Positions 21,522 to 64,000 of a DNA stretch of 64,000 nt are shown here, piece by piece. Positions within the stretch are counted from its first letter, which is position 1; the number at the start of each line of letters is the position of its first letter. A program made the translations under genes and the position numbers. The stretch covers positions 193 to 64,192 of the forward strand of contig NZ_AZVB01000021.1 of assembly GCF_000513995.1 (NCBI RefSeq). Reading direction: 5' to 3'. The notes below the pieces were generated by a model. The model was not told the origin of the DNA and did not search any database. It saw nothing but the letters and a program-made list of their open reading frames with translations. This DNA is from Pseudoxanthomonas sp. J35. GTDB lineage: Bacteria > Pseudomonadota > Gammaproteobacteria > Xanthomonadales > Xanthomonadaceae.

Positions 21522-21704
21522 TGGTTCTCCACCATGCCGATGCGGCGAAACGACCTTGAACCCGAGGTTCAAGTGGGAACGGTCGGAAACCTTCGGGCTT
21601 CCCGCTCATGGCGGACATGCACACCCGGCGTCGTCGCATCCCCGGTGTCGTTTTTAAGGGACAAGGCGAATGTTTTGCCAGCTGTCGAACACGGCAGAGA
21701 ACGC
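21522..21704 (-). ncRNA. ssrS: 6S RNA
   Basis: About 183 nt between zapA and the 5-formyl-THF cycloligase gene, the standard location for 6S RNA. The ends pair: TTCTCTGCCGTG near the 5' end with CATGGTGGAGAA near the 3' end gives 12 consecutive pairs including G-U. The 3' half contains CTTGAACC...GGGTTCAAGG, the well-conserved hairpin of gammaproteobacterial 6S RNA. A perfect TATAAT lies at 21711-21716 on the minus strand, seven bases before the inferred start. 6S RNA mimics an open promoter and binds sigma-70 RNA polymerase in stationary phase. The ends are estimated to within about five bases. Confidence 0.9.
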
Positions 21705-60534: not shown

Positions 60535-60608
60535 GCGGGTGTAGTTCAATGGTAGAACTGCAGCTTCCCAAGCTGCTAACGTGGGTTCGATTCCCATCAC
60601 CCGCTCCA
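60535..60608 (+). tRNA. glyU: tRNA-Gly (anticodon CCC)
   Basis: 74 nt with the encoded CCA (60606-60608). Acceptor GCGGGTG pairs with CACCCGC, followed by discriminator T. The anticodon arm GCAGC-TTCCCAA-GCTGC gives anticodon CCC, reading GGG. The T arm GTGGG-TTCGATT-CCCAT is standard. It reads GGG codons, used in a high-G+C genome. Confidence 0.97.
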
Positions 60609-60684: not shown

Positions 60685-61623
60685 ATGAAACTGGCGATCC
60701 TTTCGCGCAACGCTTCCCTGTATTCCACCCGCCGGCTGGTGGAGGCGGCGCGCGTGCGCGGCCACAGCGTGCGCGTGCTCGACCCGCTGCGCTGCTACAT
60801 GCGCATCGCCCCGGACGGCTTCGCCATGCGCTACAAGGGCAAGCCGGTGAGCGGCTACGACGCGGTGATCCCGCGCATCGGCACCTCCATCACCCGCTAC
60901 GCCACCGCGGTGCTGCGCCAGTTCGAGCTGATGGGCAGCTGGACCCCCAACGGTTCGGACGCGATCCTGCGCGCCCGCGACAAGCTGCGCACCCACCAGC
61001 TGCTGGCGGCGCAGGGCATCGGCCTGCCGACCACGGTGTTCGGCGACAACCCCGACGACACCGACGACCTGCTGTCGCTGCTGGGCCCGCCGCCGCACGT
61101 GGTCAAGCTGAGCGAGGGCACCCAGGGAGCCGGGGTGATGCTGACCGAGAAGCCCTCCGCCTCGCGGGCGGTGGTGGAGGCCTTGCGCGGGCTCTACGCC
61201 AACTTCCTGCTGCAGGAGTTCGTCGCCGAGGCCGAGGGCGCCGACCTGCGCTGCTTCGTGGTCGGCGACCGGGTGGTCGCGGCGATGCGCCGGCAGGCGG
61301 CCGAGGGCGAGTTCCGTTCGAACCTGCATCGCGGCGGCGAGGCCTCCCCGGCCCAGGCCAGCGAGGAGGAGCAGGCGATGGCGGTGCGCTCGGCGCGGGC
61401 GCTTGGCCTGGGGGTGGCGGGGGTGGACCTGATCCGCTCCAGCCGCGGCCCGCTGGTCCTGGAGGTCAACTCGACCCCGGGCCTGGAAGGGGTCGAGACC
61501 GCCTGCGGGGTGGATGTGGCCGGGGCGATCATGGATTACGTGGCGGCCTCGGTTTCCATTTCAAATCAATCAGATGGGCCGGTTTCCGGGGTCCGGGGCG
61601 GGGCCCGGCGCCGGCCCTTTTAA
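60685..61623 (+). CDS. rimK: Ribosomal protein S6--L-glutamate ligase (RimK)
   Basis: 312-residue ATP-grasp enzyme that adds glutamates to the C-terminus of ribosomal protein S6. The N-terminus [18 protein letters not shown] and [18 protein letters not shown] match Escherichia coli RimK closely. The ATP-grasp part has [29 protein letters not shown] and [15 protein letters not shown]. It is about a dozen residues longer than the E. coli protein, ending in a Gly/Arg-rich tail. A weak hairpin followed by TTTT overlaps its stop codon (61601-61621). A -10-like TTTAAT for the next RNA lies just downstream. Confidence 0.95.
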
Positions 61624-61639
61624 CGCACCTTTAATCGGT

Positions 61640-61770
61640 TCCGGCTTAGGCTCCATCGGACCGCAGCTCCTTCGTCAGCCGGGGGGATCGCAGCCTCCCC
61701 GGCCGGCACACGAGATACGGTAATCGGGGCAATCCTTGGCCCAGGCGGTCTCCCCAGCCTGGGCCTTTTT
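61640..61770 (+). ncRNA. Candidate small RNA with C-rich loops
   Basis: About 130 nt of non-coding sequence ending in a strong rho-independent terminator, with a TTTAAT -10-like box at 61630-61635 and no coding frame. Predicted arms are: a middle hairpin CCGGGGGG...CCTCCCCGG (about 61679-61702) and the terminator hairpin whose loop is GGTCTCCCCA. Unpaired C-runs in loops are typical of Xanthomonas-family sRNAs such as sX13 that base-pair with G-rich ribosome-binding sites. Likeness to sX13 is from memory and not checked. It could also be the long leader of the 61890 gene. Confidence 0.4.
61738..61770 (+). terminator. Strong rho-independent terminator
   Basis: Perfect 9-bp stem GGCCCAGGC / GCCTGGGCC, 10-base loop, then TTTTT (61766-61770). 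It lies 115 bases after rimK and 120 bases before the next gene, too far to be rimK's own obvious terminator. Confidence 0.9.
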
Positions 61771-61889: not shown

Positions 61890-62378
61890 ATGTACAAGCT
61901 GCTCATCCTCTCCGTCCTCGCCCTGGCGCCGGTGGCCGCCGGCGCCACCATCAACGCGAGCGGCGAATCCTTCTCCCCCGAGAAGGGGTTGGACCTGGCG
62001 CGTTCGTTCGACGCCCAGCGCACCGCGATCCTGCAGGCGCTCGCCGACGGCGAGACCTACAGCGAGATCGGCGCCGAGGAACGCCGCCAGGTGCGCGCGT
62101 CCCTGGACCGCATCGACGCGTTGCTGAACGGCGTGCAGGACGTCAACCAGCTGTCCGAGCGCGACAAGGTCGAGGTCTTCAACGAGCAGGAGCGGATCAA
62201 CACGCTGCTGACCAGGGCCCGCGAGGACAGCCGCCTGGTCTGCGTCCGCGAGAAGAAGGTCGGCTCGCACCGGGCCACCAACAACTGCCAGACCGTGGCC
62301 GAGCGCCGCCGTGCCCACGAACAGACGCAGAACGCGCTGATGAACAACCGCGGTGTCCGCCTGCCAATGGCCAACTGA
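61890..62378 (+). CDS. Small secreted protein preceding a two-component system
   Basis: 162 residues. Signal peptide (MYKLLILSVLALAPVAAGA), then a mostly helical mature part with LDRIDALLNGVQDVNQLSER, FNEQERINTLL and two cysteines in LVCVREKKVGSHRATNNC, probably a disulfide. GAGGTTCC precedes the ATG. It is only seven bases upstream of the response-regulator gene, so it is the first gene of a three-gene operon. A role as periplasmic partner or reporter of the kinase is possible but only inferred. No family recognised. Confidence 0.85.
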   Translation: MYKLLILSVLALAPVAAGATINASGESFSPEKGLDLARSFDAQRTAILQALADGETYSEIGAEERRQVRASLDRIDALLNGVQDVNQLSERDKVEVFNEQERINTLLTRAREDSRLVCVREKKVGSHRATNNCQTVAERRRAHEQTQNALMNNRGVRLPMAN

Positions 62379-62385
62379 GGCGCCC

Positions 62386-63069
62386 ATGCGCATCCTCGTC
62401 ATCGAAGACAACAGCGACATCGCGGCCAACCTCGGGGACTACCTCGAGGACCGCGGCCATACCGTCGATTTCGCCGCCGACGGGGTCACCGGCCTGCACC
62501 TGGCGGTGGTCCACGATTTCGACGCGATCGTCCTGGACCTGAACCTGCCGGGGATGGACGGCATCGAGGTCTGTCGCAAGCTTCGCAACGAGGCGCGCAA
62601 GCAGACCCCGGTGCTGATGCTCACCGCCCGCGACAGCCTGGAGAACAAGCTGGCCGGTTTCGACTCCGGCGCCGACGACTACCTGATCAAGCCGTTCGCG
62701 CTGCAGGAAGTCGAGGTGCGGCTCAACGCGCTGTCGCGGCGCGGCAAGGGCGTGCAGACGCGGGTGCTCAACGTCGGCGACCTCGAGTACAACCTCGACA
62801 CCCTCGAGGTCCGTCGCGAAGGCCGCCTGCTGCAGCTCAACCCCACCGCGCTGAAGATCCTGCAGGCGCTGATGGAGGCCTCGCCGGCCGTGGTTACCCG
62901 CCAGGAGCTGGAGACCCGCGTGTGGGGCGAGGAGCTGCCGGATTCCGATTCCCTGCGCGTGCACATCCATGGCCTGCGCGCGGTGGTCGACAAGCCTTTC
63001 CCGGTGCCCTACATCCAGACCCGGCATGGCATCGGCTACCGCATCGCCGCGCCCGATGGCGGAAGCTGA
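62386..63069 (+). CDS. OmpR-family response regulator
   Basis: 227 residues. Receiver domain with the acidic pocket IEDNSD, phosphoacceptor Asp51 (IVLDLNLPGMDG), Thr80 (LMLTARD) and Lys102 (YLIKPFA), then a winged-helix DNA-binding domain ending in VPYIQTRHGIGYRI. It should be phosphorylated by the kinase encoded just downstream, whose start overlaps its 3' end by 14 bases. Confidence 0.95.
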   Translation: MRILVIEDNSDIAANLGDYLEDRGHTVDFAADGVTGLHLAVVHDFDAIVLDLNLPGMDGIEVCRKLRNEARKQTPVLMLTARDSLENKLAGFDSGADDYLIKPFALQEVEVRLNALSRRGKGVQTRVLNVGDLEYNLDTLEVRREGRLLQLNPTALKILQALMEASPAVVTRQELETRVWGEELPDSDSLRVHIHGLRAVVDKPFPVPYIQTRHGIGYRIAAPDGGS

Positions 63070-64000
63070 GTCCACGACGCATCCCCGCCGGCACCGGAGG
63101 TTCCGGCGCCGGCTGCGTACCCGCATCATCCTCTCGTTCCTGCTGCTGGGCACGGGCCTGACGGCCCTGTTCGCGTTCCTCACCGACTACGCGCGCCAGC
63201 GCGTGGAGAGCCAACTGGTCGAGGACGTGATGAACCGCAACATCAACGAGTACGCGCGGCGTTTCTACCTCGACCCCGGCAACGCGCGCCCGGAACTGCC
63301 GGTGCAGCAGATGTACGGGCGCGTGGTCACCCGCGAGGGCTTCGAGCAGCTGCGCCGCGAGGAGCCGGACTGGTACGAGCTGCCCGACGGCATCCACAAC
63401 ATCAGCGGCCAGGACGAGGACGGCAACCCGTTCGCCTACAAGCTGGCGGTGCGCAAGACGCCGAACGAGTGGTTCTTCCTCGCCTACGACATGACCCAGA
63501 CGCTGCGCGGCGAGGTCCAGCTCAAGCGCGCGCTGTACGTGTCGATCCTGCTGTTCAGCGGCCTGTCGCTGCTGATTGGCTGGTGGTCGGCGTCGCGGGT
63601 GATGCGGCCGGTCACCGAGCTGGCCTCGCGGCTGCGCGCCTACCGCGGCAGCAGCCAGCCGCGGCGCCTGGCGCCGCACTTCCCCGAGGACGAGGTCGGC
63701 CAGCTGGCCGAGGCGCTGGACGACTACGCCACGCGGCTGACCGAGGTGGTCCAGCGCGACCGCGAATTCAACGCCGACGTCAGCCACGAACTGCGCACGC
63801 CGCTGGCGGTGATCAAGGGCGCGGTGGAGCTGCTGCTGTCGCGCCCGGACTTGGACGAGCGCACCCGCGCGCGCCTGCTGCGCATCCAGCGCGCCGAACA
63901 GCAGTGCAGCGACCTGATCGGTTCGCTGCTGCTGCTGTCGCGCAACGAGCGCGGCCAGGGCCACAGCGACGTGGCGCGGGTGGCCGAGCAGCTGCTGGAC
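63056..64000 (+). CDS. Sensor histidine kinase, truncated by the window end
   Basis: 315 residues visible. A basic N-terminus leads to a membrane helix (about 23-43), a periplasmic domain of about 110 residues (44-157, with REEPDWYELPDG), a second helix (about 160-178), a HAMP-like linker and the phosphoacceptor helix with His244 in FNADVSHELRTPLAVIKG. The ATPase domain lies beyond the window. Translationally coupled to the regulator by a 14-base overlap. The signal is unknown; the periplasmic domain has no fold I recognise. Confidence 0.93.
   Translation, partial: MAEAESTTHPRRHRRFRRRLRTRIILSFLLLGTGLTALFAFLTDYARQRVESQLVEDVMNRNINEYARRFYLDPGNARPELPVQQMYGRVVTREGFEQLRREEPDWYELPDGIHNISGQDEDGNPFAYKLAVRKTPNEWFFLAYDMTQTLRGEVQLKRALYVSILLFSGLSLLIGWWSASRVMRPVTELASRLRAYRGSSQPRRLAPHFPEDEVGQLAEALDDYATRLTEVVQRDREFNADVSHELRTPLAVIKGAVELLLSRPDLDERTRARLLRIQRAEQQCSDLIGSLLLLSRNERGQGHSDVARVAEQLLD

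Follow-up and report, generated by a model that had tools for sequence, protein, structure and literature searches.

A 64,000-nt stretch of DNA from Pseudoxanthomonas sp. J35 (hereafter the window) almost certainly carries a stand-alone small RNA (sRNA) gene immediately behind rimK, as judged from its sequence features and their conservation. Predicted promoter elements of its own, a structured RNA and an intrinsic terminator could be shown to be kept between rimK and the gene for an OmpR-family response regulator, and comparison among relatives strongly supports conservation of the sRNA gene across the order Xanthomonadales/Lysobacterales. The reading that we favour, with reasonable but by no means full confidence, is that of an order-wide trans-acting sRNA that would be activated by a regulator and would block ribosome binding on target mRNAs. 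An earlier note had proposed an unassigned small RNA at this place, a proposal now strongly supported, since promoter, RNA core and terminator are conserved order-wide; the note had mentioned neither the repeat in the promoter nor the near-invariant core, nor any link to the response regulator.

The features of the locus are collected in Table 1, in which the 5′ end of the RNA is predicted to within a few nucleotides and the 3′ end is that of the T run. Read from 61619 on the forward strand, the order is TTTAAC-GCACC-TTTAAT, 11 nt, TAGGCT, GGACCGCAGCUC..., a GC-rich hairpin, GAGAUACGGUAAUCGGGGCAAU and the terminator hairpin, which reads GGCCCAGGC...GCCUGGGCC and is followed by five T's. The -10-like box, the folded non-coding stretch and the terminator with its T5 tail that the earlier note had described were all recovered. 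Its statement that they lie well apart from both neighbouring genes did not hold, since rimK ends only ~35 nt before the RNA, with the promoter repeat overlapping the rimK stop codon, and the gap between the end of the RNA and the next open reading frame (ORF) is ~120 nt. The sensor histidine kinase ORF probably has its real start at ~63060, as judged by eye. The only other Rfam RNAs in the window are a 6S RNA at 21522-21703 on the minus strand (RF00013, 94.6 bits) and a tRNA at 60535-60605.

Table 1. Features of the sRNA locus and its neighbours (positions in the window)
Feature	Position	Strand	Basis or remark
rimK (ribosomal protein S6 glutamate ligase)	60685..61623	+	NCBIfam NF007764 over cut-off, Pfam PF08443; upstream neighbour
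Direct repeat TTTAAC-N5-TTTAAT, proposed OmpR-family regulator site	61619..61635	+	Sequence; overlaps rimK stop codon
-10 element TAGGCT, 11 nt past the repeat	61647..61652	+	TANNNT at this offset in 67/71 distinct loci
Small RNA (predicted)	61658..61770	+	Conserved block and covariance models
5′ strand of outer helix (ACCG; partner CGGT, 61718-61721)	61660..61663	+	Fold; pair counts, 37 sequences
CUCCUU, anti-Shine-Dalgarno-like run	61667..61672	+	Sequence; half paired in minimum-energy fold
Variable GC-rich hairpin	61676..61707	+	Fold; alignment A1
Near-invariant core CGGTAATCGGGGCA	61718..61731	+	Alignments A1 and A3
Intrinsic terminator, 9-bp stem and T5	61738..61770	+	Sequence; pair counts
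162-aa ORF in the RNA-to-regulator interval	61890..62378	+	No Pfam/NCBIfam family; present between them in some loci only
OmpR-family response regulator, probable VgrR ('ColR') orthologue	62386..63069	+	Pfam PF00072 and PF00486
Sensor histidine kinase ORF, continuing past the window edge	62969..64000	+	Pfam PF00512 and PF00672

Promoters activated by OmpR-family regulators usually have a repeat at a fixed distance from the -10 element and no separate -35 box, and the box of the family member PmrA (BasR) is YTTAAK-N5-YTTAAK. The promoter of the small RNA is, as a sequence, of this OmpR/PmrA-type activated layout: there is no separate -35 box, its place being taken by the direct repeat YTTAAC-N5-YTTAAN, the half-sites of which are spaced by 11 bp. 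A TANNNT motif starts exactly 28 nt from the start of the repeat in 67 of the 71 distinct loci, whereas at each of the 13 other offsets tested it occurs in none or only one, and this spacing was not pre-selected by the search pattern. For the repeat itself the count is 72 of 79 loci, obtained with a regular expression in which it is pre-selected. When one mismatch was allowed, ten genomes contained 28 repeats, compared with 7 for the reversed pattern, and in eight of these ten the exact repeat lies at the small RNA. The likeness to PmrA and its box lies in the direct repeat (YTTAA-N6-YTTAA) and in the recognition helix of the neighbouring regulator (SLRVHIHGLR, aligned with TLEVHIHNLR of PmrA/BasR), whereas the candidate repeat stands ahead of an sRNA and its first half-site ends in C instead of G/T. 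Simple promoter and terminator scans of the region flagged no site, the latter probably because the terminator loop is longer than the 8-nt limit of the scan.

The segment 61640-61775 folds with -63.0 kcal/mol (z = -2.36), and 3 of 200 dinucleotide shuffles were equally stable. The fold by itself is thus only moderately unusual, and it is conservation that raises the candidate above chance. Pairing was counted in an alignment of 37 sequences from several families (A3), without the row of locus L070, the start of which was misassigned. Over all helices 88.2% of the cells were paired and 11 of 18 pairs showed double changes; the number of double-change cells was 43, compared with 16.2 in shuffles, none of 500 of which reached as high. 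The terminator is the structure with the best comparative support (97% of cells paired, with changes on both sides in 6 of its 9 pairs). At the 5′ end, the outer helix shows hardly any variation, while the inner helix, in which CUC (61667-61669) pairs with GAG (61712-61714), had 70.5% of its cells paired. When the two strands of the 5′ helix were cross-paired between members, 192 of 10000 permutations overall were as good as the true partners, and 75 of 10000 in the other families; within the family alone the test was not significant (1088 of 10000). When folding was left unconstrained, 36 of the 59 distinct members formed this helix. An alternative pairing suggested by the family-level fold, GCUCC with GGGGC, was rejected, as GGGGC is lost in Xanthomonas and Stenotrophomonas (AAUCGGGAAU, AAUCGGGAUA).

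The core CGGTAATCGGGGCA consists of the 3′ strand of the helix and a single-stranded, G-rich linker, and its near-invariant unpaired part reads CGGTAATCGGGGC. In many members (L158, L093, L164 and others) the core is GATTAC-G-GTAATC, a 13-bp DNA palindrome, which might form a hairpin in the RNA or serve as a site for a protein. The lengths of the variable region differ among members by non-multiples of three, so that it is not coding, and the idea that a small ORF is what the locus conserves was rejected because of this out-of-frame variation. The locus therefore presents, as predicted from DNA alone, its own promoter, an intrinsic terminator and a non-coding transcript, as expected of a stand-alone sRNA. 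A different reading, that the conserved hairpin merely terminates rimK transcription and that there is no functional RNA, would fit its place directly 3′ of rimK and the fact that the terminator is the best-conserved structure, but several families also conserve what lies upstream of the terminator, namely the repeat, the -10 element with its fixed spacing, and the CGGUAAUCGGGGC core, all of which would be needless for a terminator alone, and this reading is highly improbable.

A DNA search of 60 relatives found matches in 16 of the 17 genomes of the genus (its own included), in 5 of 19 other genomes of the family and in none of 24 other genomes of the order. A covariance model built from 21 sequences of that search (R1; alignment A1) reached much further, with matches in 226 of 297 family genomes (42 of 54 genera) and in 67 of 200 order genomes, six other families among them. 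The covariance search in Xanthomonadaceae that the earlier note had suggested was extended with a second model (R2), built from 37 sequences of several families, which matched 239 of the 297 family genomes and 105 of the 200 order genomes (47 of 69 genera), although part of this count is by construction, since R2 was trained on some of the searched genomes, and the E-values are rough. In a class-wide set R2 matched 3 of 185 genomes, all three being members of the same family (Xanthomonadaceae). Among named genomes a pattern search returned 35 matches, which carry the names Pseudoxanthomonas, Xanthomonas, Stenotrophomonas, Lysobacter and one unclassified Lysobacterales MAG.

Across these genomes the RNA lies almost always between rimK and the OmpR-family regulator gene. 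Among 20 family loci picked from the matches to spread over genera, all 20 have rimK upstream and the regulator downstream, and the regulator (66-77% identity) is also downstream in all 18 loci taken from the 39 R1 matches in other families. Of the 35 named loci, 34 show rimK and 28 show the regulator, the RNA of the remaining ones being close to the end of the available sequence piece. The 162-aa ORF accompanies the locus, mostly in the interval between RNA and regulator, but between rimK and RNA in L060 and L070; L183 has two copies, and some loci have none. In the loci seen within the family the response regulator is strongly conserved (81-100% identity), whereas the adjoining sensor kinase shows 39-60%.

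Such constant placement, with one and the same gene following on the same strand in 20/20 and 18/18 loci, would also be expected if the RNA were a cis-acting leader or attenuator, that is, the 5′ end of the regulator-operon transcript with a conditional terminator at which structure switching sets read-through. The family genomes negative with R1 bear on this possibility. The regulator gene was present in 15 of 16 such genomes probed; upstream of it there was a diverged RNA in four (by eye) and the promoter alone in two more, while in the other nine a regular expression found neither RNA nor promoter. Three of these nine have the RNA elsewhere: in G061 and G105 (the latter a weak match, E 0.046) on a contig other than that of the regulator, and in G072 at 2.6 kb from it, and in all three the RNA, the promoter repeat and the terminator are still found behind rimK. 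The persistence of the RNA behind rimK without an adjoining regulator argues that it is not simply the regulator's leader. Another gene is, besides, often present between the two, so that the same downstream gene is not found directly in line throughout. For X. campestris, the portion of the published study available to us reports vgrR start sites mapped at -31 and +23 and saw no co-transcript from XC1048, which lies upstream of vgrR and vgrS (PMC5231390). A leader function thus appears improbable, and we retain the interpretation as a trans-acting sRNA.

Control of the sRNA gene by an OmpR-family regulator seems likely from the promoter layout, and the neighbouring regulator is, with somewhat less assurance, the probable controller. 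This regulator is probably the VgrR/'ColR' orthologue, because its family, its neighbourhood and the 94-95% identity in those named Xanthomonas loci that contain it fit; the regulator of P. suwonensis J47 is 100% identical to that of the window over the aligned part. VgrR is described, in the available parts of two papers, as an OmpR-family regulator that binds promoters directly and responds to iron status (PMC5231390, PMC6237974), and the name 'ColR' has been confused in the literature among VgrR, RaxR and DetR (PMC8306577, seen in part).

The repeat of this trans-acting sRNA might, however, be the site of a different OmpR-family member, for instance PmrA/QseB, PhoP or one of the VgrR paralogues like RaxR or DetR, and the neighbour would then be a bystander. 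TTAA repeats are common to related regulators. In genome G206 (locus L127) a similar repeat, TTTAAGAACTTTTTAAT, stands ahead of a different response regulator gene, perhaps an autoregulated one of PmrA/QseB type, and the RNA can separate from its neighbour gene yet retain the repeat. Six TonB-dependent receptor genes (L173-L178), from five of the ten genomes scanned, have a TTAAC-N5-TTTAATT repeat upstream, and this could suggest that the repeat may serve another regulator. These six genes also share a GGAGAGAGA leader immediately ahead of the ATG; the receptors are a mixture of paralogues, 922-986 aa long and with 27-72% identity, and their repeat lies at a larger distance from the apparent -10 element than at the sRNA. 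The receptor TdvA has 928 aa according to the available text of its report (PMC5231390), and tdvA could not be identified among the six repeat-bearing receptors, so that the repeat was not tied to VgrR by that route. Since adjacency of the RNA and the regulator gene is otherwise maintained across the examined families, control by a different regulator seems rather unlikely, and the neighbouring VgrR-type regulator is preferred as the activator.

Regarding targets, the earlier note had held that C-rich runs exposed in the terminator loop and the middle arm would pair with G-rich translation starts. In the window the terminator loop GGUCUCCCCA is indeed partly open, whereas CCUCCCC of the middle arm is paired in the minimum-energy fold. 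Pairing with translation starts is kept as a working model mainly on account of the relatives, and less of the window: in Xanthomonas and Stenotrophomonas the fold exposes CCUCCUCA in an 8-nt apical loop, and more distant members have CACUCC(U) at the apical loop position and UUCCCCC in the terminator loop. Of 64 distinct members, 45 have CUCC within the 5′ domain, compared with a mean of 29.5 and a maximum of 37 over 300 shuffles. Among genus-spread representatives the motif is present in 16 of 23 from the family, a count attained by 17 of 300 shuffles, and in 7 of 12 from other families, attained by 2 of 300. CU-rich loops are not universal among members. In several distant members (L158, L160, L164, L168, L171, L182-L185) the terminator hairpin is long, and its apical loop is a conserved C-rich sequence, ~GTTCCCCC, which is absent from the window's genus. 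The other candidate seed is the near-invariant linker AAUCGGGGCA. A pattern search for the complement of the core found GGTAATCGGG 4-9 times per genome, about the number expected from composition (a rough estimate), and yielded no targets. Repression at ribosome-binding sites is slightly favoured as the mode of action.

No family of Rfam release 15, a library that includes at least sX8 and asX2 among Xanthomonas sRNAs, reached its gathering threshold in the window or in six related loci; CyaR, the best weak match, was rejected at 23.3 bits against a threshold of 47. The proposed logic, in which a two-component system extends its regulon by a repressing sRNA, resembles that of OmrA/B, CpxQ and MgrR, enterobacterial sRNAs under OmpR-family regulators, none of which showed any sequence relation to the small RNA in the Rfam scans. 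A literature search of titles and abstract starts, with sRNA survey tables outside its range and an earlier listing therefore possible, returned no sRNA described between rimK and vgrR/colR. The term 'sRNA' does not occur in the main text, as far as available, of the VgrR-VgrS papers (PMC5231390, PMC6237974), to whose system the present one is linked by the probable VgrR orthologue. The likeness to sX13 drawn in the earlier note stands as an analogy only: the two share a length of ~115 nt, a stand-alone intergenic gene, the bacterial group, and C-rich hairpin-loop runs proposed to pair with G-rich starts. In the accessible part of its description, sX13 has homologues always downstream of polA, a 5′ region that lacks structure, and three stem-loops whose loops are CCCC/CCCCC (PMC3771888). 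The RNA described here is flanked by rimK and the response regulator gene, is helical at its 5′ end, contains a G-rich linker, is preceded by a promoter repeat, and in its short Xanthomonas/Stenotrophomonas form consists of a 5′ hairpin (with the CCUCCUCA loop) and the terminator hairpin. Identity with sX13, as described there, was ruled out by this different locus and structure.

The proposed course of events is as follows. A member of the OmpR family, for which the VgrR-type regulator next door is the most likely candidate, would bind TTTAAC-N5-TTTAAT by the -10 element and activate transcription, which would start near 61658. The CU-rich, anti-Shine-Dalgarno-like loop or loops would then pair with G-rich ribosome-binding regions of mRNAs encoded elsewhere, possibly helped by the AAUCGGGGCA linker, and the regulator would gain a repressing arm through the sRNA. 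Since VgrR responds to iron and binds promoters directly, the RNA could be VgrR's repressing arm. A bolder version, which we regard as quite improbable, is that this core sRNA carries opposite seeds on one molecule and links the VgrRS signal to the sRNA network, the CU-rich anti-Shine-Dalgarno loops blocking ribosome-binding sites and the G-rich linker AAUCGGGGCA pairing, as a sponge, with C-rich-loop sRNAs such as sX13.

What is new here is the breadth of the family and the fixed promoter design, not a new principle, and the small RNA would make a good Rfam entry. If expressed and controlled as proposed, it would be a core sRNA for an order in which major plant pathogens (Xanthomonas) stand beside opportunists (Stenotrophomonas) and biocontrol bacteria (Lysobacter). 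It would moreover be tied to a two-component system, VgrRS, for which control of iron responses, stress responses and virulence has been reported in X. campestris, and a conserved sRNA arm could account for some of the indirect repressing effects of that system.
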